From positions 1-55,651 of the forward strand of contig CALVAG010000001.1 in the NCBI GenBank assembly GCA_944325445.1: a DNA stretch of 55,651 nt, written 5' to 3'. The translations under genes and the position numbers were made by a program. Position 1 is the first letter of the stretch, and every line of letters begins with the position of its first letter. Under the pieces are notes generated by a model. That model worked only from the letters and a program-made list of their open reading frames with translations, was not told where the DNA came from and ran no database searches. The stretch is from an uncultured Bacteroidales bacterium (GTDB taxonomy: Bacteria > Bacteroidota > Bacteroidia > Bacteroidales > UBA932). Shown here piece by piece: positions 15,647 to 23,264 of the stretch.

Positions 15647-16756
15647 TTATGCAATAAATCCTTTCTTCAGAAGCAATTCCGCAATCTGGATTGCATTGGT
15701 GGCCGCACCTTTCCTGAGGTTGTCGGATACGCACCAGAGATTTACACCGCTTGCAACCGAAAAATCCCTTCTGACTCTTCCTACAAAGACCTCATCCCTG
15801 CCTTCGCTGTAAAGAGGCATGGGATATGGCAGTTTCCCGAGCGCATCGAGATTTTTTCTCTCCGCACAGGCCTCTTTTACGCTCTTGTCTCCGATTGCCG
15901 GATTCTGCTCATCTCCTTTCGGCGCCACATTGTCTTGTATTACTACTCCGGGAGTATTGCGCAGTACCTCGATAAGTTCTTCATCCTTGAACTCTTTTTC
16001 GAATTCGAGGTTTATGGATTCTGCATGGCCTCCGAGTACCGGAACCCTGATTGCAGTAGGGGAAACCCTTATGGAGTCGTCCCTCATAATCTTATGCGTT
16101 TCGTTCACCATCTTCATCTCCTCTTTGGTATATCCGTTTTCGAGGAACTTGTCTATGTGCGGCAGCAGGTTCAGGTCTATCTGGTACGGATATGCGCATT
16201 TATATTCGCCCCCTATTATATTCTTCTCTATGCCTTCCCATCTGCCTCTCTCCTCGACCAGCTGGTCCACAGCTTTTTGGCCTGTACCGGTAATACATTG
16301 GTAGGTAGAGACCACTATTCTTTTTATCTTATATTTTTTGTGCAGGTCGGCAATGGCAATAAGCATCTGTATAGTGGAGCAGTTGGGGTTTGCTATGATT
16401 CTGTCCTCCTTTTCGAGCACATCCCCGTTTATCTCCGGTACAACCAGTTTTTTCGTAGGGTCCATTCTCCAGCATGCGGAGTTGTCCACTACATAGCAAC
16501 CTGTCTGTGCAAACATGGGCGCATATTTTTTGGATGCATCGCTTCCGGCGGAGAATATGGCCAGAGCAGGTTTTTTGGCAATACCCTCTTCAGGGGTGAC
16601 GACAGTGTATTCTTTGCCTTTGAATCTTACCTTCTTGCCGGCAGACCTCTCCGATGCTACCGGAATGAGTTCCGTTACAGGAAAATCCCTCTCCTGCAGA
16701 ACTTCCAACATTCTTGTGCCTACCAGACCTGTGGCACCTACAACTGCAACTTTCAT
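15647..16756 (-). CDS. asd: Aspartate-semialdehyde dehydrogenase
   Basis: The enzyme reduces aspartyl phosphate to aspartate semialdehyde with NADPH. The protein has 369 residues and begins MKVAVVGATGLVGTRMLEVL with the dinucleotide-binding loop. The catalytic Cys is Cys126 in IANPNCSTIQM. VSTYQCITGTGQKAVDQL and the substrate-site GGHAESINLEFEKEF follow. It is the last gene of the metY-metX-thrA-asd operon, 14 bases after thrA. The product also serves lysine and diaminopimelate synthesis, so control of this operon would affect cell-wall precursors too. Confidence 0.97.
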   Translation of the reverse strand: MKVAVVGATGLVGTRMLEVLQERDFPVTELIPVASERSAGKKVRFKGKEYTVVTPEEGIAKKPALAIFSAGSDASKKYAPMFAQTGCYVVDNSACWRMDPTKKLVVPEINGDVLEKEDRIIANPNCSTIQMLIAIADLHKKYKIKRIVVSTYQCITGTGQKAVDQLVEERGRWEGIEKNIIGGEYKCAYPYQIDLNLLPHIDKFLENGYTKEEMKMVNETHKIMRDDSIRVSPTAIRVPVLGGHAESINLEFEKEFKDEELIEVLRNTPGVVIQDNVAPKGDEQNPAIGDKSVKEACAERKNLDALGKLPYPMPLYSEGRDEVFVGRVRRDFSVASGVNLWCVSDNLRKGAATNAIQIAELLLKKGFIA

Positions 16757-16770
16757 CTTCTGTTATTTTG

Positions 16771-19227
16771 TTAAATTGTTAATATGTCGTTCAATATTCC
16801 GCCGGCTGTCTGTACCGCACCGGCTCCCGCACCTTTGATTACTATGCCGTTCGGATAGAAAAGCGATGTAATGGCAAAGGCATTGTCGCTTCCTTCTATT
16901 GCATAGAACGGATGCGAACTCTCTACGGCTGTAAGGGATACCTTGCAGAGCGGTTTGCCACCCTCTTTTTCCGCAGCCTTGTAACAGGCTGCAAAGCGGA
17001 GCCTCTTTCCTGCCGAAACGGCCTTTCCGTAGAGCTCTTTCATTTGAGGCTCATACTCCTCCAGCTTTTTGTAAAATTCATCCATGGAGCGCCCCGGGTC
17101 TATTATCTCTTCAGGCAGAATGCCTTTGAATTCGACATCTGCGCGCTCTATCCTTATGCCTGCCTGCCTTGCCGAGATTATGAACTTGCGCATCACATCG
17201 CTGCCGGAAAGGTCCGTTCTCGGGTCCGGCTCCGTGTAACCGAGTTCCTTCGCCCTCTTTACAAGGGAGGCAAAAGAGCAGCTGCTGTCGTAATTGCTTA
17301 AAAGATAATTGAGGGTGCCGCTTACGATTCCTTCGAATCCGGTGATTTTATCTCCTGCGTTTACAAGCTGCGAAATTGTCCCCAGTACCGGAAGCGCGGC
17401 GCACACGGTCGTCTCATATTTAAATGAAACCCCCTCTTTCCTTGCGCTTGAAAGCAGTTCGTCGTAAAAATCCTGGGAGAGCGAACATGCGATTTTGTTG
17501 CAGGCTACGACAGAATATTTGTGGCGGAAAAGGTCTGTATATGCCGAGGCTATGCTTCTGCTTGCAGTACAGTCCACGAAGATGGAGTTGCCGAGCTGCA
17601 TCTGATAAAGCGCGGCAAGATAACCGTTTTCGCTATTGTCGTCTCCCTCCTCGAGTTTCGAACAGAGGTCTCCGCTTATTCCATTCCTGTCTACCACATA
17701 TCTTCTGCTGTTTCCTATACCGCAGATTACGAGTTCCTTTCCGCACCTGTCTGCAATCGGCCTGCCCTGTTTGCGTATAATTTCGACAAGCGCCTTTGCA
17801 ACTGTACCGTAACCTGCGATGAACAGATTGACCCTGTTGCTGCTTTCACTGAAAAATTCGTTGTGAATGGTTCTTATAGCATCGTTTACATCCTCTGTCC
17901 TGACTACTGCCGAAACGTTCTTTTCAGAAGAGCCCTGGGCTATAGCCCTTATGTTAATCCCTTCCCTGCCGAGTGCATCGAACATCTTTCCGCTGGCGCC
18001 GGACTGGTTTTTCATGTCATCTCCTACAAGGGATATTATGGAGAATCCCTTTTCTACTCTGAGAGGATCTACCTTGCCCAATGAGATTTCATATGCAAAA
18101 AGTTCGTCGGAAGCCTTTTTTGCAAGGTCCGCATCCTTTTCGTCAATGGCTATGCACATGGTATGTACCGATGATGCCTGGGTGATGAGAATAATGTTTA
18201 TGTTGTTTTTGCTCAGAGTGTCGAACAGTCTGCTGGAGTAGCCGGGAATGCCGACCATGCCGCTTCCCTCCATGGAGAGCAGCGCTATCTTGTTGGAGCT
18301 CGAGATTCCTCTTATTTTGCTCTTCCCCTCGGGCGGATTGCGTTCTATGAGCGTTCCCGGGTCATCGGGGGCGAATGTATTCTTTACATATATGGGAGTT
18401 CCCTGTTTTACTACGGGCTGTATTGTGGGCGGATAGACTACCTTCGCCCCGAAGTGCGAAAGTTCCAGGGCCTCTTTGTACGAGATATTCCTGATGGGTT
18501 TTGCATCAGGGACTATGCGCGGGTCTGCGGTCATCATTCCGCATACATCAGTCCATATTTCCAGTCTGCGGGCCTGTGCCCCCACTGCAATTATGGAGGC
18601 GGTGTAATCCGATCCGCCGCGTCCGAGCGTGGTTGTCCTGCCCATCATATCCATGGCTATGAAGCCCGGGAGAATGTAGAGCGAAGTGTTGTTGCTGTCG
18701 AAATACTGTCTGATATTGTTGAATGTAATATCTGTTATGACGGAGTTCTTGCCGCCTGCCGGCTCGGTCTTTATAAGTTCCCTCGAGTCTTTCCATTTAT
18801 GGCTGATGTTCAGCGATTTGAGCTTTGCGCTTATGATTTTTGTCGAGAGAAGCTCCCCGAAACTCACTATGTGGTCGAGGCTGAAATCGCTCAACTCCTT
18901 GAGAAGGTAGACTCCTTTGCAAATCTCCCTCAATTTTTCGAAGAGCCCGTTGCATTCTGCCTTTATGTCGTCGCTTTCCTGCAACGGAATGAGATTGTCT
19001 ATAAGTTCTATATGTCTTTTCAACAGGGCGTCTATCTGGCCGGTGTAGCCGTTGTCCTGGGCCAGGGCCGCCTTGCCTATCGCTATCAGGGCATCGGTGC
19101 ATCCGCTTATCGCAGATGAGACTACAACCGTCTTATCCTTTGTCAATGCCTGTTTTACGATCTCGATTACCCTTGTGATGTTTTCGGCATTGGCTACTGA
19201 AGAGCCGCCGAATTTGAGTACTTGCAT
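16771..19227 (-). CDS. thrA: Bifunctional aspartokinase / homoserine dehydrogenase
   Basis: This 818-residue fusion catalyses the first and third steps from aspartate. The aspartokinase half starts MQVLKFGGSSVANAENITR, with GRGGSDYTASI near residue 205. Two ACT-type regulatory segments follow at about 310-455 (LLSMEGSGMVGIPG, then ISLVGDDMKNQSGASGKMF). The homoserine dehydrogenase half begins with the NAD(P) loop in LFIAGYGTVAKALVEII near 470 and contains VACNKIACS and FEGIVSGTLNYLLS. The ACT domains imply feedback by threonine or a related amino acid. It starts one base after the metX stop and leads into asd. Confidence 0.96.
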   Translation of the reverse strand: MQVLKFGGSSVANAENITRVIEIVKQALTKDKTVVVSSAISGCTDALIAIGKAALAQDNGYTGQIDALLKRHIELIDNLIPLQESDDIKAECNGLFEKLREICKGVYLLKELSDFSLDHIVSFGELLSTKIISAKLKSLNISHKWKDSRELIKTEPAGGKNSVITDITFNNIRQYFDSNNTSLYILPGFIAMDMMGRTTTLGRGGSDYTASIIAVGAQARRLEIWTDVCGMMTADPRIVPDAKPIRNISYKEALELSHFGAKVVYPPTIQPVVKQGTPIYVKNTFAPDDPGTLIERNPPEGKSKIRGISSSNKIALLSMEGSGMVGIPGYSSRLFDTLSKNNINIILITQASSVHTMCIAIDEKDADLAKKASDELFAYEISLGKVDPLRVEKGFSIISLVGDDMKNQSGASGKMFDALGREGINIRAIAQGSSEKNVSAVVRTEDVNDAIRTIHNEFFSESSNRVNLFIAGYGTVAKALVEIIRKQGRPIADRCGKELVICGIGNSRRYVVDRNGISGDLCSKLEEGDDNSENGYLAALYQMQLGNSIFVDCTASRSIASAYTDLFRHKYSVVACNKIACSLSQDFYDELLSSARKEGVSFKYETTVCAALPVLGTISQLVNAGDKITGFEGIVSGTLNYLLSNYDSSCSFASLVKRAKELGYTEPDPRTDLSGSDVMRKFIISARQAGIRIERADVEFKGILPEEIIDPGRSMDEFYKKLEEYEPQMKELYGKAVSAGKRLRFAACYKAAEKEGGKPLCKVSLTAVESSHPFYAIEGSDNAFAITSLFYPNGIVIKGAGAGAVQTAGGILNDILTI

Positions 19228-19228
19228 A

Positions 19229-20290
19229 TTATAAAATCTCCTTTAAAATATTTGCTATCTGTTTCCATTCAAGTAAAAAGCCGTCGTGTCCGTAAAGGGA
19301 GGTAATCTCCCGGTATATCCCGTTCTTTACGTGGCTTGCAATATATTTCTGTTCTTCTGAGGGAAAGAGGATGTCGCTGTCTATCCCTACGCATATTACA
19401 TTGGCGTTTATCATGTTGAGTGCTGTCTCCACTCCGCCCCTGCCGCGCCCTATATTGTGGCTGTCCGTGAGGTTGAGCATCGATAGGTAGGAGTAGGCAT
19501 CGAAACGCCTTACAAGCTTCTGTCCCTGATACTGCTGGTATGAGGCTGCCTTATGGTTCCAGATTATCTCGTTGCTCGTTTCATATTGGGATTTGTTGTA
19601 GCCCTGATAGCTCCTGTAGGAGATAAGGGCTATGGAACGGGCTGCCGCGAGTCCCTTGGCCCCTCCTTTGGCAACGATTTCCCCGTTTTTTATCGAGAAT
19701 TCCTGCCCTTCAAAGGTAGGGTCCGAGAAGAGCGCCATTCTCTGCGATTCGTTGAAGGCATTTCCCCAGGGGGTTATTCTTGCATTGCATGCAAGCAGGG
19801 CCACGTTTTTTATTACATCCCGTCTCGAAATGCTCCACTCTATGGCCTGGAATCCCCCTACGGACCCTCCTATGAGCAGGTCTATCTCCTTTATCCCGAG
19901 ATATTCTCTCAGCATGTCGAGGGTTGCTACGATGTCCCGTACGGTCGTTTTGGGAAAATCGAGCAGGTACGGCTTCCCGGTTTCCGGATTTATTGAGAGC
20001 GGTGAGGTGGAGCCGTAGCATGAACCTATAAGATTGGCGCATACTATGGTGTATTTGCGCGGGTCCAGAAACTTGCCTTCGCCTACCAGATCTTCCCACC
20101 ATTCGCAGGGGTTGGAGTTGGCGGTAAGGGCATGGGTTATCCAGACAACCTTCTTCCCCCTCTGCTCGGTGCTCTGCTCCCCGTCGGAATCCCACTCCCT
20201 CGAAATGTGGTAGCAGATGGTGATATCCTTCAATATCTCCTTGCTTTCCAGTACGAATTCTCCGCTATGTCTGAAAAATCTCTTTTCCAC
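19229..20290 (-). CDS. metX: Homoserine O-acetyltransferase
   Basis: This is a 353-residue alpha/beta hydrolase-fold enzyme that acetylates homoserine with acetyl-CoA, committing it to methionine. The catalytic triad is visible as Ser143 in LIGGSVGGFQAIEW, Asp306 in GIDSDILFP and His335 in YGHDGFLLEW. The family segments THALTANSN and NLIGSCYGSTSP are also present. It follows metY after 12 bases and is followed by thrA after one base. Some MetX-fold enzymes use succinyl-CoA, and the donor cannot be read with certainty here. Confidence 0.95.
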   Translation of the reverse strand: MEKRFFRHSGEFVLESKEILKDITICYHISREWDSDGEQSTEQRGKKVVWITHALTANSNPCEWWEDLVGEGKFLDPRKYTIVCANLIGSCYGSTSPLSINPETGKPYLLDFPKTTVRDIVATLDMLREYLGIKEIDLLIGGSVGGFQAIEWSISRRDVIKNVALLACNARITPWGNAFNESQRMALFSDPTFEGQEFSIKNGEIVAKGGAKGLAAARSIALISYRSYQGYNKSQYETSNEIIWNHKAASYQQYQGQKLVRRFDAYSYLSMLNLTDSHNIGRGRGGVETALNMINANVICVGIDSDILFPSEEQKYIASHVKNGIYREITSLYGHDGFLLEWKQIANILKEIL

Positions 20291-20302
20291 AATATGACAG
20301 CT

Positions 20303-21583
20303 CTATTTTATTATGCTTAATGCCTGATCCAAGTCGTTTATAATGTCGTCTATATCTTCAATCCCTACGCAAAGCCTGAGCGTTCCCGGTTTTATGCCTA
20401 CATTGAGCAGCTCCTTGTCTGTCATCTGGCTGTGTGTTGTCGTGGCCGGGTGTGCCACCAGGGATTTGTTGTCTCCGAGGTTTGCCAAAAGGGTGAAGAT
20501 TTCCAGCTTCTCGACCGCTTTTGCCGTGCTCTCCCTGTCTGCCTTGAGATCCACTATTATAATGCCTCCGAAACCGTGTTTCAGGTATTTTTTCGCATTT
20601 TCGTGGCTCGGATGGTTTTCGAGTCCCGGATAGCAGACCCTTTCCACCTTGGGATTGGCCTGCAGCCACTCTGCAAGTTTGAGCGCATTGTCGCAAACCC
20701 TTTGGGCCCTTAATGAAAGGGTTTCCAATCCTGTAAGCAGAAGGAATGAGTTGAACGGGCTGAGCGAGCAGCCGATGTCTCTCAACCCTTCGTTGCGGGC
20801 CCTTACCCCAAAGGCATCCTTCTTCGAGTATTCGTAATAGCTTAATCCGTTGTGGGCAGCCACAGGTTCGGTAAATTGCGGAAAGCGGCCCGATGCCCAG
20901 TCGAATTTTCCGGCATCCAGAAGTACGCCGGCGATAGAGTTTCCATGGCCGCAAATCCATTTCGTGGCAGAGTGCGTTATTACATCGGCTCCGAGGTCTG
21001 CCGGTGTGCAGACATAGCCTCCGCAGCCTACGGTATTATCTACCATAAGCGGAATCCCGTGTTTGCGGCATACATCTGCAAGCAGTTCGAAATCCGGTAC
21101 CGACAGGTCTGAATTTGCAATGCTCTCAACATATATTCCCTTTGTTTTGTCGTCTATCAGGGACTCCAGCTCCGCCCTGTTTTTGCAACTGCTGAACTTT
21201 ACATCTATTCCCAAACGCGGGAGCGTTACCTTGAACTGGTTGAATGTGCCCCCGTAGAGAGAGATGAAGCTTATAATATTGTCGCCGGCCTGGCATAGAT
21301 TTATGACCGCCAGGAATTGGGCGCTCATTCCAGATGAGACAGCCACTGCATTGGAGCAGTTTTCAAGTGCGGCAATCCTCCTTTCGAAGGCAGCGGTAGT
21401 AGGGTTGGTAAGTCTTGAATAGATGTTTCCCTCCTCTTCCAGGGTAAAGAGTCTGCGTCCGTGTTCTATATTTTTGAATGCGTATGCTGCGGTTTGGTAA
21501 ATCGGCGTTGCACAAGCGCCCGTTGTGGGGTCCGGAGTATTTCCGGCATGTACCTGAAGAGTATCGAATTTATATTTTGCCAT
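20303..21583 (-). CDS. metY: O-acetylhomoserine sulfhydrylase (aminocarboxypropyltransferase)
   Basis: This 426-residue PLP enzyme makes homocysteine from O-acetylhomoserine and sulfide. The start MAKYKFDTLQVHAGNTPDPTTGA gives the family N-terminus; an earlier ATG would add 17 unrelated residues. Visible features are YSRLTNPT, the cofactor-binding VSSGMSAQ, and the PLP Lys208 in THSATKWICGHGNS. It is the first gene of the operon. The 200-base leader ahead of it carries a consensus promoter, a short Met-containing reading frame and a terminator hairpin. Confidence 0.96.
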   Translation of the reverse strand: MAKYKFDTLQVHAGNTPDPTTGACATPIYQTAAYAFKNIEHGRRLFTLEEEGNIYSRLTNPTTAAFERRIAALENCSNAVAVSSGMSAQFLAVINLCQAGDNIISFISLYGGTFNQFKVTLPRLGIDVKFSSCKNRAELESLIDDKTKGIYVESIANSDLSVPDFELLADVCRKHGIPLMVDNTVGCGGYVCTPADLGADVITHSATKWICGHGNSIAGVLLDAGKFDWASGRFPQFTEPVAAHNGLSYYEYSKKDAFGVRARNEGLRDIGCSLSPFNSFLLLTGLETLSLRAQRVCDNALKLAEWLQANPKVERVCYPGLENHPSHENAKKYLKHGFGGIIIVDLKADRESTAKAVEKLEIFTLLANLGDNKSLVAHPATTTHSQMTDKELLNVGIKPGTLRLCVGIEDIDDIINDLDQALSIIK

Positions 21584-21688
21584 TTTCTGGATTTTAGGTT
21601 TGACTTTTGTAAGATGGGTGAAGCACAAGTGCATATCACAAGCTATGCTTGATTGGAATACACAATATATGTCTTCTGTTTGGGAAAT

Positions 21689-21717
21689 AAAAAAGGTGAT
21701 GCATCTTAACGATGCAT
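21689..21717 (-). terminator. Intrinsic terminator in the metY leader (attenuator)
   Basis: On the minus strand ATGCATC (21717-21711), loop GTTAA and GATGCAT (21705-21699) form a perfect 7-base-pair stem. It is followed by CACC and six T (21694-21689), with another T-run soon after. The hairpin lies about 105 bases before the metY ATG, so it would stop transcription ahead of the operon. A competing small hairpin, ATGC-GAAT-GCAT, uses the left arm and would block it. Confidence 0.75.
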
Positions 21718-21759
21718 TCGCATGGTCATTGCGCCGATGATATGATTCGCACCCTGCAT
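21706..21759 (-). CDS. Putative Met-containing leader peptide of the met operon
   Basis: A 17-codon reading frame, MQGANHIIGAMTMRMHR, ends with TAA inside the loop of the terminator hairpin. Met codons are clustered at positions 11, 13 and 15, immediately before and at the left arm of the stem. A ribosome slowed there for lack of Met-tRNA would cover the left arm and prevent termination, as in classical amino-acid attenuation. The frame starts about 25 bases from the predicted transcription start. There is no strong Shine-Dalgarno, as usual in this phylum. Three regulatory Met codons is fewer than in the best known leaders, so the call is not certain. Confidence 0.6.
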   Translation of the reverse strand: MQGANHIIGAMTMRMHR

Positions 21760-21790
21760 GTGAATATTACCGAATAGTAATTACAAGGTA

Positions 21791-21821
21791 CAAAATTATG
21801 CAATAAATTTTAATTGCCAAA
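21791..21821 (-). promoter_or_regulatory. Consensus promoter of the metY-metX-thrA-asd operon
   Basis: On the minus strand TTTG (21821-21818) and TAATTTTG (21798-21791) are separated by exactly 19 bases, a full match to the Bacteroidetes -33/-7 consensus. The -33 box lies inside the last codons of the hydrogenase gene. The predicted RNA has a leader of about 200 bases before metY. Confidence 0.75.
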
Positions 21822-23264
21822 ATCTTTTGTGATTTTGTTCAGTTCCGTTACAATCTGCCTTTGGGAGGTCGCCTTGTCTGTATAGATACATGGTCCGGTT
21901 ACGCAACCGCCTTCGCATGCCATTACCTCCACGAACGGAGCAGGAGCCTTGGCTGTCTTTGCGTAAAGCCTGAGCAGCCCTATGTTTTTCTTGTCGAGAT
22001 TTGCAACTTTCACCGTATTCAGGTTGTTTTGTGCAAGATATGATTTGACTGCACCTATGACTCCTCCGCTTTGCGCGAACCCGTGAGCCTCCCTTACGGA
22101 TTCAAAACTCATCTTGTAGGGCTCTGCCGTATTTATGTCTATGTCCATGCCGTCTATAATAGAACCCAACTCTTCGAAGGTGAGGGTATAGTCTACATCA
22201 GGATTGAGCTTTACCTCTTTCCTCTTTGCTATGCACGGCCCTATGAATACGAGTTTGGCATCGGGATATTTCTCTTTTGCAATCTTTGCGGTATAGTACA
22301 TCGGGGAACCTGTCGTAGAGATATATTTCTTTATCTCGGGAATGTGCTTTTCCGCAAGCTGTATGTATGAAGGGCAGCAGCTTGTAGTCATGAACGGTTG
22401 CCCCTCCTTTATCTTCTCCATGAGTTCGTGCGCCTCGTTTACGGTGGTATCCATAGCGCCCTGCGCCACCTCTATTACATCCGTAAACCCTATAGCCTTT
22501 ATTGCACCGTAGACATTTTCAATGGGGACAGTGAATTGTGCCAGAATAGAGGGGGCCACCATTGCAATGACCTTGTTGCCCTTCCTTATATTCTGGAGCA
22601 CATCGAAAACCTGCGAAATCTCGAAGATGGCTCCGAACGGGCAGGCATTTATACATTTGCCGCAATAGATGCACTTTGAATCGTCTATGTGCTCTATGCC
22701 GTTCTCATCCTTGCTTATGGCCTTTACCGGACAGACATTTTCGCAGGGAATGGGGATATATACTATTGCATGGTACGGACAGTTGGCATAGCACTTGCCG
22801 CAACTTATGCAGTAGTCGTGGTCTATCTCGGCCTTCCCTTCCGAATTGAAGCGTATTGCATCCTTGGGACAGCTAAGGTAGCAGCTTCTCGCCACACATC
22901 CTCTGCAGAGATTGGTTATGACATAATTGACCTGCACGCAGGAAGAACATGCCTCGTCTATTACGCACATTATATTCTCTTTCGGATTTTTTTCTCTCTC
23001 CAATGCGAGTCTGGCATAGTGGGAAAGCGGTGTGAGCTCGTCTGTCTCATCGCTCATGTCGAACCCTAAAAGCGGAAATGTCTTGTACTTCCATACTGCG
23101 CGCTCCTTATGGACGCAGCAACGGCCCATTACCTTGGCCTTTCTCGGTGAAAGTTTTATCGGGAGTCTGTCTATTTCGTCTATTAAAGAGTTCTCTTTCC
23201 ATAATTTAACAAGAGTGGCCAAAAGCTTGTGGCGCACTATCATCACATTATTTGTAAATGCCAT
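21810..23264 (-). CDS. [FeFe] hydrogenase, group B, monomeric with ferredoxin domains
   Basis: This 484-residue protein carries the H-cluster motifs in group B form: L1 TTSCCPSY, L2 IGPCIAKRKE and L3 MACEGGCVTGPC. Upstream of them lie two [4Fe-4S] ferredoxin motifs, CISCGKCYANCP and CIYCGKCINACP, plus an extra CENVCP. A further Cys-rich segment (CSSCVQVNYVITNLCRGC) lies near residue 110. The N-terminal 100 residues show no known domain to me. Group B enzymes are found in anaerobic Bacteroidetes and Firmicutes; their physiological direction is poorly defined. No maturase genes (hydE, hydF, hydG) are in the window. The gene lies 69 bases after the AraC regulator on the same strand. Confidence 0.9.
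   Translation of the reverse strand: MAFTNNVMIVRHKLLATLVKLWKENSLIDEIDRLPIKLSPRKAKVMGRCCVHKERAVWKYKTFPLLGFDMSDETDELTPLSHYARLALEREKNPKENIMCVIDEACSSCVQVNYVITNLCRGCVARSCYLSCPKDAIRFNSEGKAEIDHDYCISCGKCYANCPYHAIVYIPIPCENVCPVKAISKDENGIEHIDDSKCIYCGKCINACPFGAIFEISQVFDVLQNIRKGNKVIAMVAPSILAQFTVPIENVYGAIKAIGFTDVIEVAQGAMDTTVNEAHELMEKIKEGQPFMTTSCCPSYIQLAEKHIPEIKKYISTTGSPMYYTAKIAKEKYPDAKLVFIGPCIAKRKEVKLNPDVDYTLTFEELGSIIDGMDIDINTAEPYKMSFESVREAHGFAQSGGVIGAVKSYLAQNNLNTVKVANLDKKNIGLLRLYAKTAKAPAPFVEVMACEGGCVTGPCIYTDKATSQRQIVTELNKITKDFGN

Follow-up and report, generated by a model that had tools for sequence, protein, structure and literature searches.

A conserved methionine-codon leader frame with an embedded hairpin, a probable ribosome-read switch ahead of met operons in Bacteroidales

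Known regulators of bacterial methionine genes include SAM riboswitches, T-boxes, and repressors such as MetJ. The locus described here raises the question of whether a ribosome translating Met codons in a short leader frame controls such genes, and by what route that control would reach the operon. The window, the whole stretch of DNA that was analyzed, comprises 55,651 nucleotides from an uncultured, gut-type Bacteroidales bacterium (contig CALVAG010000001.1 of assembly GCA_944325445.1).

Layout of the leader region

The features of the locus are listed in Table 1. A sequence-only reading had claimed a full-consensus promoter, a 17-codon frame with clustered Met codons 11, 13, and 15 against the left arm of a stem, a stop codon inside the hairpin loop, and an operon leading from aspartate to homocysteine. 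All of these were borne out: the promoter agrees with the Bacteroidetes consensus TTTG/TAnnTTTG given in two earlier reports (PMC6847099, PMC7366714), the TAA lies in the GTTAA loop, and NCBIfam matches assigned the order metY-metX-thrA-asd, with the metX match under its curated cut-off. Codon 1 of the frame is also Met, and 108 bases separate the T6 run from the ATG of metY. Another ATG, at 21634 in frame upstream of metY, would extend MetY by 18 residues; it is absent in the relative L047.

Table 1. Features of the leader region, its operon, and the upstream neighbor in the window
Feature	Position	Strand	Remarks
−33 promoter element TTTG	21818..21821	-	Matches Bacteroidetes consensus; overlaps 3′ end of upstream [FeFe] hydrogenase frame
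−7 promoter element TAATTTTG	21791..21798	-	Matches consensus TAnnTTTG; spacer to −33 element 19 nt
Leader ORF MQGANHIIGAMTMRMHR plus TAA	21706..21759	-	17 codons; ATG at 21759, TAA at 21708-21706
Conserved 23-mer ATGCGAATGCATCGTTAAGATGC	21701..21723	-	M-R-M-H-R-stop plus right arm of hairpin
Hairpin ATGCATC-GTTAA-GATGCAT	21699..21717	-	7 pairs, −8.3 kcal/mol; loop holds stop codon
T6 run	21689..21694	-	4 nt (CACC) past 7-bp stem; candidate termination or pause point
metY, O-acetylhomoserine sulfhydrylase family	20303..21580	-	First gene of operon; TIGR01326
metX, homoserine O-acetyltransferase-like	19229..20290	-	Best match TIGR01392, 297 bits; below curated cut-off of 500
thrA, bifunctional aspartate kinase/homoserine dehydrogenase	16771..19227	-	NF006959
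asd, aspartate-semialdehyde dehydrogenase	15647..16756	-	TIGR01296
[FeFe] hydrogenase frame	23264-21810	-	Upstream neighbor of leader region

Taken alone, the window leader is unremarkable. Folding of positions 21785-21685 gave a z score of −1.3, and a terminator scan of 21000-22500 found 1 site compared with 1.8 in shuffled sequences. It is the comparison with relatives, not the window by itself, that shows the leader module to be more than chance. An Rfam scan gave no family at the gathering score in the window and a single irrelevant weak match around the leader; for the leader there was no Rfam match to SAM-I, other known riboswitches, or the T-box.

Frame and hairpin in relatives

Thirty-nine genomes of the window's genus were searched with the 23-mer ATGCGAATGCATCGNTAAGATGC, allowing up to three mismatches. 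It was present in 17 of them, in a single copy each, and the reversed control gave 0 matches. Each copy stood at the end of a short frame, with metY downstream in 16 and metX in one (G002). In a metY search of 61 genomes, all 15 from the genus whose metY match reached 62% identity or more carried the 23-mer. The stop codon is lost in G002 and G062, where the frame continues to RMHRQDA or longer. The motif was not found at up to three mismatches in G035, which has a metX match, and in G006 metX lies at a contig edge with no upstream sequence to inspect.

The exact 20-base core CGAATGCATCGYYAAGATGC was scanned across the genome collection (genome_contigs), a search that yields a set conserved by construction. 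Fifty-six of its 61 matches lay ahead of metX or metY, in records of Cryptobacteroides, Egerieousia, and other Bacteroidales or Bacteroidetes. The other five were one match ending at a contig end (L110) and four in or opposite unrelated open frames; the latter (L088 and L114, antisense in one type of coding frame, and L081 and L116, inside long open frames) were taken as chance, and a role of the motif outside met genes was rejected. Against sampling bias, MetX was also searched in 299 genomes of the family, 191 of which had a match; among the matches listed, 80 places were picked for genus variety and the region upstream of the first gene was inspected. By match score and by eye, 44 of these metX regions have the leader and hairpin and 36 have none, although two of the 36 (L226 and L253) bear a divergent leader with another stem. 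Spread of the 23-mer by sequence across the order was rejected: 7 of 295 genomes matched with up to three mismatches, the window's own genome included, compared with a chance estimate of about 4, and by eye the neighboring frames at the order-level matches L048-L054 were not recognizable as met leaders.

The three sets joined comprise 117 members, 66 of them distinct, after exclusion of the five exact-core stretches without a met gene match; the members beyond the exact-core set were likewise found through the motif. Those near contig ends were skipped, leaving 65 of the 66 for start-site pairing, 63 for the promoter, and 60 for the frame, for which a promoter box was also required. One misregistered member, L181, was counted for T enrichment, terminators, start-site pairing, promoter and Met content, and stem, and was left out of the frame count (60) and the competing-hairpin count (65).

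Sixty-one of the 63 distinct members have a TAnnTTTG box 10–170 nt ahead of the motif, and 5 of the 63 have the reversed pattern. An open leader frame with a start 3–40 nt past the −7 box is present in 58 of 60; the corresponding counts for the other two frames are 5 and 2. For these counts and for the start distances, ATG, GTG, and TTG were accepted as starts. The first in-frame start follows the −7 box by a median of 9 nt (31 nt in the window), and in 42 of 61 members it is within 12 nt. Taking the end of the box as −5, where one report places it (PMC6847099), the predicted 5′ UTR at the median start is about 5 bases, and the mRNAs of those 42 members are predicted to be nearly leaderless. 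A UTR of that length is unusual, because UTRs shorter than 10 nt make up about 3.7% in B. thetaiotaomicron as reported in PMC7366714.

From the start to the last five codons, Met accounts for 110 of 969 residues (11.4%) in the leaders of 61 members, compared with 2.1% in 29 long ORFs of the window. Met stands at offset −6, a position not used in finding members, in 47 of 65, at offset 0 in 45 of 65, and at +6, which belongs to the search motif, in all 65. The Arg codon between the Met codons is CGA, which is rare, making up 4.9% of all Arg codons in the window's long ORFs. Judged from these sequence patterns, the short leader frame is likely translated.

On comparative grounds we conclude that the hairpin is a real RNA structure. 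Its five core-stem pairs are paired in 0.99 of cells in register, and shifted registers reach no more than 0.39; the three cells with mismatches in the core pairs were taken to be those of L181. A two-sided change in L252 (GCAAC:GTTGC) alters the peptide to RMQR and keeps the pairing; L218 and L258 have wobble pairs. Covariation is nevertheless thin, because a mostly invariant stem offers, in 65 members, a single two-sided change and two cases of wobble. Loop length ranges between 4 and 9 nt, and in many members the loop contains no stop codon. An alternative CGA:TCG hairpin, or mini pseudoknot, was rejected; it is broken in L240 (CGC), L243 (CAA), and L252.

Frame, Met codons, and hairpin are mostly kept together in relatives. 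The comparison strongly supports a leader-peptide module, and with it the earlier claim that a leader peptide rich in Met codons is coupled to the met genes downstream. The comparison of met upstream regions thus gave the opposite of a hairpin kept without its frame or Met codons, with single decayed variants as the exceptions: L192 keeps the leader frame close ahead of metX and has no hairpin, and L217 has a frame without internal Met codons. These two point to decay of the module in some lineages. L211 has no Met from the start to R-M-H.

A proposed switch and its alternatives

We propose that a Met-codon leader with a codon-embedded hairpin lets a ribosome awaiting Met-tRNA switch on metY-metX-thrA-asd, a reading that we regard as probable, though by no means assured. 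The last leader codons are also the left arm of the hairpin, and a ribosome awaiting charged Met-tRNA would hold the hairpin open, allowing the operon to be expressed. The third base of the last Met codon is where the core stem begins, and the hairpin would therefore be excluded while this codon occupies the A site of a ribosome; here the geometry of stem and codons comes from the sequence and the occupancy of the ribosome is presumed. With Met plentiful, the ribosome would run on to the stop codon in the loop and be released, and formation of the hairpin would give the off state. A ribosome at the stop codon also covers the hairpin, and the off state would therefore require quick release. The off route likely differs by lineage, the step from hairpin to expression being presumptive in each. 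In the window's clade it would most simply be transcription pausing or a premature stop at the U6 run, a tentative suggestion that has less than an even chance of being right.

In the mechanism as first drawn, transcription attenuation, the hairpin and U6 run are a terminator, ATGC-GAAT-GCAT is the antiterminator, and a stalled ribosome blocks termination at 21689. Several features agree with this. The T fraction is 0.48–0.53 at 4–16 nt past the 5-bp core stem and 0.13–0.36 further on (66 members), a T6 or T4CTT run is present in all three members of the window's clade (L031, L044, and L047), and the loop contains the stop codon. The U run begins only after a 4-nt spacer, however, and some clades have no U-rich tract. 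Hairpins upstream of the motif in L034, L037, and L045, by comparison, have outer stems of 9–11 bp with a U run 0–1 nt away. On inspection for a conserved antiterminator that would exclude the hairpin, no common partner of the right arm was found; ATGC:GCAT pairing can be written in the window but is possible in just 45 of 65 distinct members. Pairing of the right arm with a downstream partner (ATCTTGGGC, a second GATGC) was seen by eye in single clades only and was rejected. A strong intrinsic terminator (−9 kcal/mol or better) lies downstream in 8 of 66 members compared with 2.6 expected, the best being that of L041 (−19), and this excess was too modest for a downstream terminator to be retained as the general output. 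Terminators at gene ends of the window (2 of 63 ORF ends at −9 or better, from a crude ORF list) were dropped as a yardstick. Because the U-rich tract is set off by a spacer and absent from some clades, and strong downstream terminators are few, a terminator does not seem to be the shared output, although one is possible in the window's clade; the tract itself would fit a pause or weak terminator. The terminator claimed earlier thus survives as a 7-bp stem followed by T6 and is not supported as a canonical terminator in general, and we consider the attenuator as first drawn unlikely.

Two other structures recur between the hairpin and the first gene in single groups. In one clade (L182-L191) a string near GGTCCATTGGG...CCCAAAAATCC is found together with two small hairpins between leader and gene; the region downstream of the hairpin gave no Rfam match in L182, L185, L189, or L191. 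In the metX-first members L196, L199, L203, L205, and L210, all of one genus, a stem with a GGGAT or AGGAT loop (GCAC-GGGAT-GTGC in L199) recurs about 30–60 nt past the hairpin.

Another possible output is translational attenuation, in which the first gene's start site would be paired with leader codons until a stalled ribosome releases it. Each member's own leader/start-site score was compared with the scores of leaders swapped within the same group in 5000 permutations. In metX-first relatives (n = 33) the own pairs scored 20.9 and the swapped pairs 17.4 (SD 0.62), a difference reached in 0 of the 5000 permutations; metY-first members other than those of the window's genus (n = 17) scored 16.7 against 15.0 (P = 0.015). 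The leader stretch TCATATCAATGATG of L066, for example, is complementary to the metX start site CGTCATTGATATGA, and L102 has matched changes, CATATCTGTC with GACAGATATG. Pairing was unsupported in the window's genus (n = 15; 14.7 vs. 14.5, P = 0.35), and only 13 of 65 members reached p < 0.05 singly against shuffled sequences. In the window's clade the best partner is located 44–62 nt ahead of the metY start and is weak compared with shuffled sequences (p = 0.07, 0.10, and 0.48). In metX-first relatives the target is likely the metX start site rather than a terminator, and the off state there would likely arise when leader codons pair with it; the pairing has statistical support and its effect is presumed. 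As the explanation of the module, translational attenuation is less likely than the terminator.

The module might also be an untranslated cis-acting RNA or DNA element, with the hairpin as a regulator binding site and the frame incidental. The string GCATC-N4-9-GATGC is steadier than the stop codon, and the hexamer CATATC is present in 33 of 65 leaders where 1 would be expected, 29 of them having it in one frame and 4 in another. The near-exclusive openness of a single frame (58 of 60, against 5 and 2) and its fivefold Met enrichment make such an element highly improbable. Least probable of all is an arrest peptide whose nascent M-R-M-H-R senses Met or SAM in the ribosome and stalls it at the stop codon: the conserved C-terminal residues and the rare CGA codon would suit it, but RMQR, RMRR, RMHL, QMHR, and stop-less variants exist, conservation reaches the hairpin arm outside the frame, and the residue change in L252 is compensated in the RNA.

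Other Bacteroidales and known systems

We return to the ribosome-read hairpin and its possible counterparts elsewhere in the order. The order-level set comprised 101 metY upstream regions, 99 from outside the window's genus and 2 (L029 and L030) ahead of distant metY-like genes within it. In-frame CGAATG occurs in short ORFs in 19 of the 101 regions and in 2 on the antisense strand. The corresponding sense and antisense counts were 7 and 0 for ATGCGAATG, 9 and 3 for ATGCGNATG, and 29 and 19 for a plain Met-x-Met pattern. A stem beginning exactly at the G of that ATG scored at least 12, the 95th percentile of flanking positions, at 7 of 19 loci examined for it (L268, L272, L287, L288, L021, L253, and L226); a single family accounts for three of the seven, and the window's own family for L226 and L253. 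Different stems occupy the same register (GCGC:GCGC, GTGCT:AGCAC, and GTGCA:TGCAC). Because the median score is 7 compared with 5, a stem at this ATG is not general.

Of 20 loci picked for leaders, 14 had a SAM-I riboswitch, ahead of metY (L021, L022, L016, L140, L145, L149, L253, L262, L268, L272, L275, L276, L287, and L303). In all 14 the leader ATG lies 7–14 nt past the aptamer, and the short ORFs carry Met near the C terminus. At SAM-I loci not picked for leaders the leader ATG follows the aptamer by 10–14 nt in 7 of 10, with three overlapping the picked set. Within the window's genus SAM-I was found in 0 of 37 genomes, with filters that lose some weak matches. Three metY leaders (L147, L129, and L288) end in R-M followed by runs of Cys (MRMCCCC, RMCCCCC, and RMCCCKH), as if also reading the Cys supply; no SAM-I was found at these loci.

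This spacing suggests that the riboswitch acts on a leader ORF at the loci having both. With an aptamer just before the leader, the frequency of leader translation would be set by SAM. A hairpin that means off and a ribosome that means on fit control by starvation, and they also fit the SAM-I loci, where SAM would lower translation of the leader. It is conceivable, though we would not put it at even odds, that a two-stage Met sensor extends across the Bacteroidales: the SAM-I aptamer would set leader translation and the ribosome at M-CGA-M would decide the hairpin, and the window's lineage would have lost the riboswitch and had a promoter placed near the leader start codon, which would leave a Met switch read by the ribosome alone.

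In the open-access literature searched, we found no Met leader-peptide attenuator and no SAM riboswitch with a leader ORF. Leader candidates from the same phylum are described for Flavobacterium psychrophilum (PMC9723704) and B. thetaiotaomicron (PMC7366714), as suspected attenuation preceding operons for amino acids or as short ORFs within long 5′ UTRs; the main-text passages of these reports gave no Met leader or conserved hairpin. The SAM-I riboswitch (RF00162) also controls Met genes, and it precedes the leaders in other Bacteroidales and was not found in the window. Its arrangement with a leader suggests that control of a small regulatory frame is one way in which a riboswitch can work, and the conserved Met-leader module leads to testable predictions on how ribosome position controls genes in Bacteroidetes.

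In the trp leader of E. coli the first hairpin has the regulatory codons in its left arm and the stop codon in its loop, the same layout as here; the conserved 2:3 and 3:4 pairings of the E. coli trp and his attenuators were not found in the present leaders. Leader-peptide attenuation itself is long known, and its closest described forms are the LEU element and the ilvB leaders of Actinobacteria. The ilvB leaders, as described in PMC1262725, concern amino acids other than Met, and the same source reports that substitution of the codons left regulation unaffected in S. coelicolor, which is a caution for the Met leader as well. Bacteroidetes mRNAs are described as having no Shine-Dalgarno sequences (PMC6847099). 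The LEU element ahead of leuA, as presented by Seliverstov et al. (2005; PMC1262725), differs in reading Leu rather than Met, in its pseudoknot, and in its Shine-Dalgarno target, and the window's genus does not show a base stem of this kind. The LEU element has a leader ORF with a run of cognate codons and internal helices, and its base stem, in which these codons pair with the region where ribosomes bind the first gene, resembles the arrangement in the metX-first relatives.
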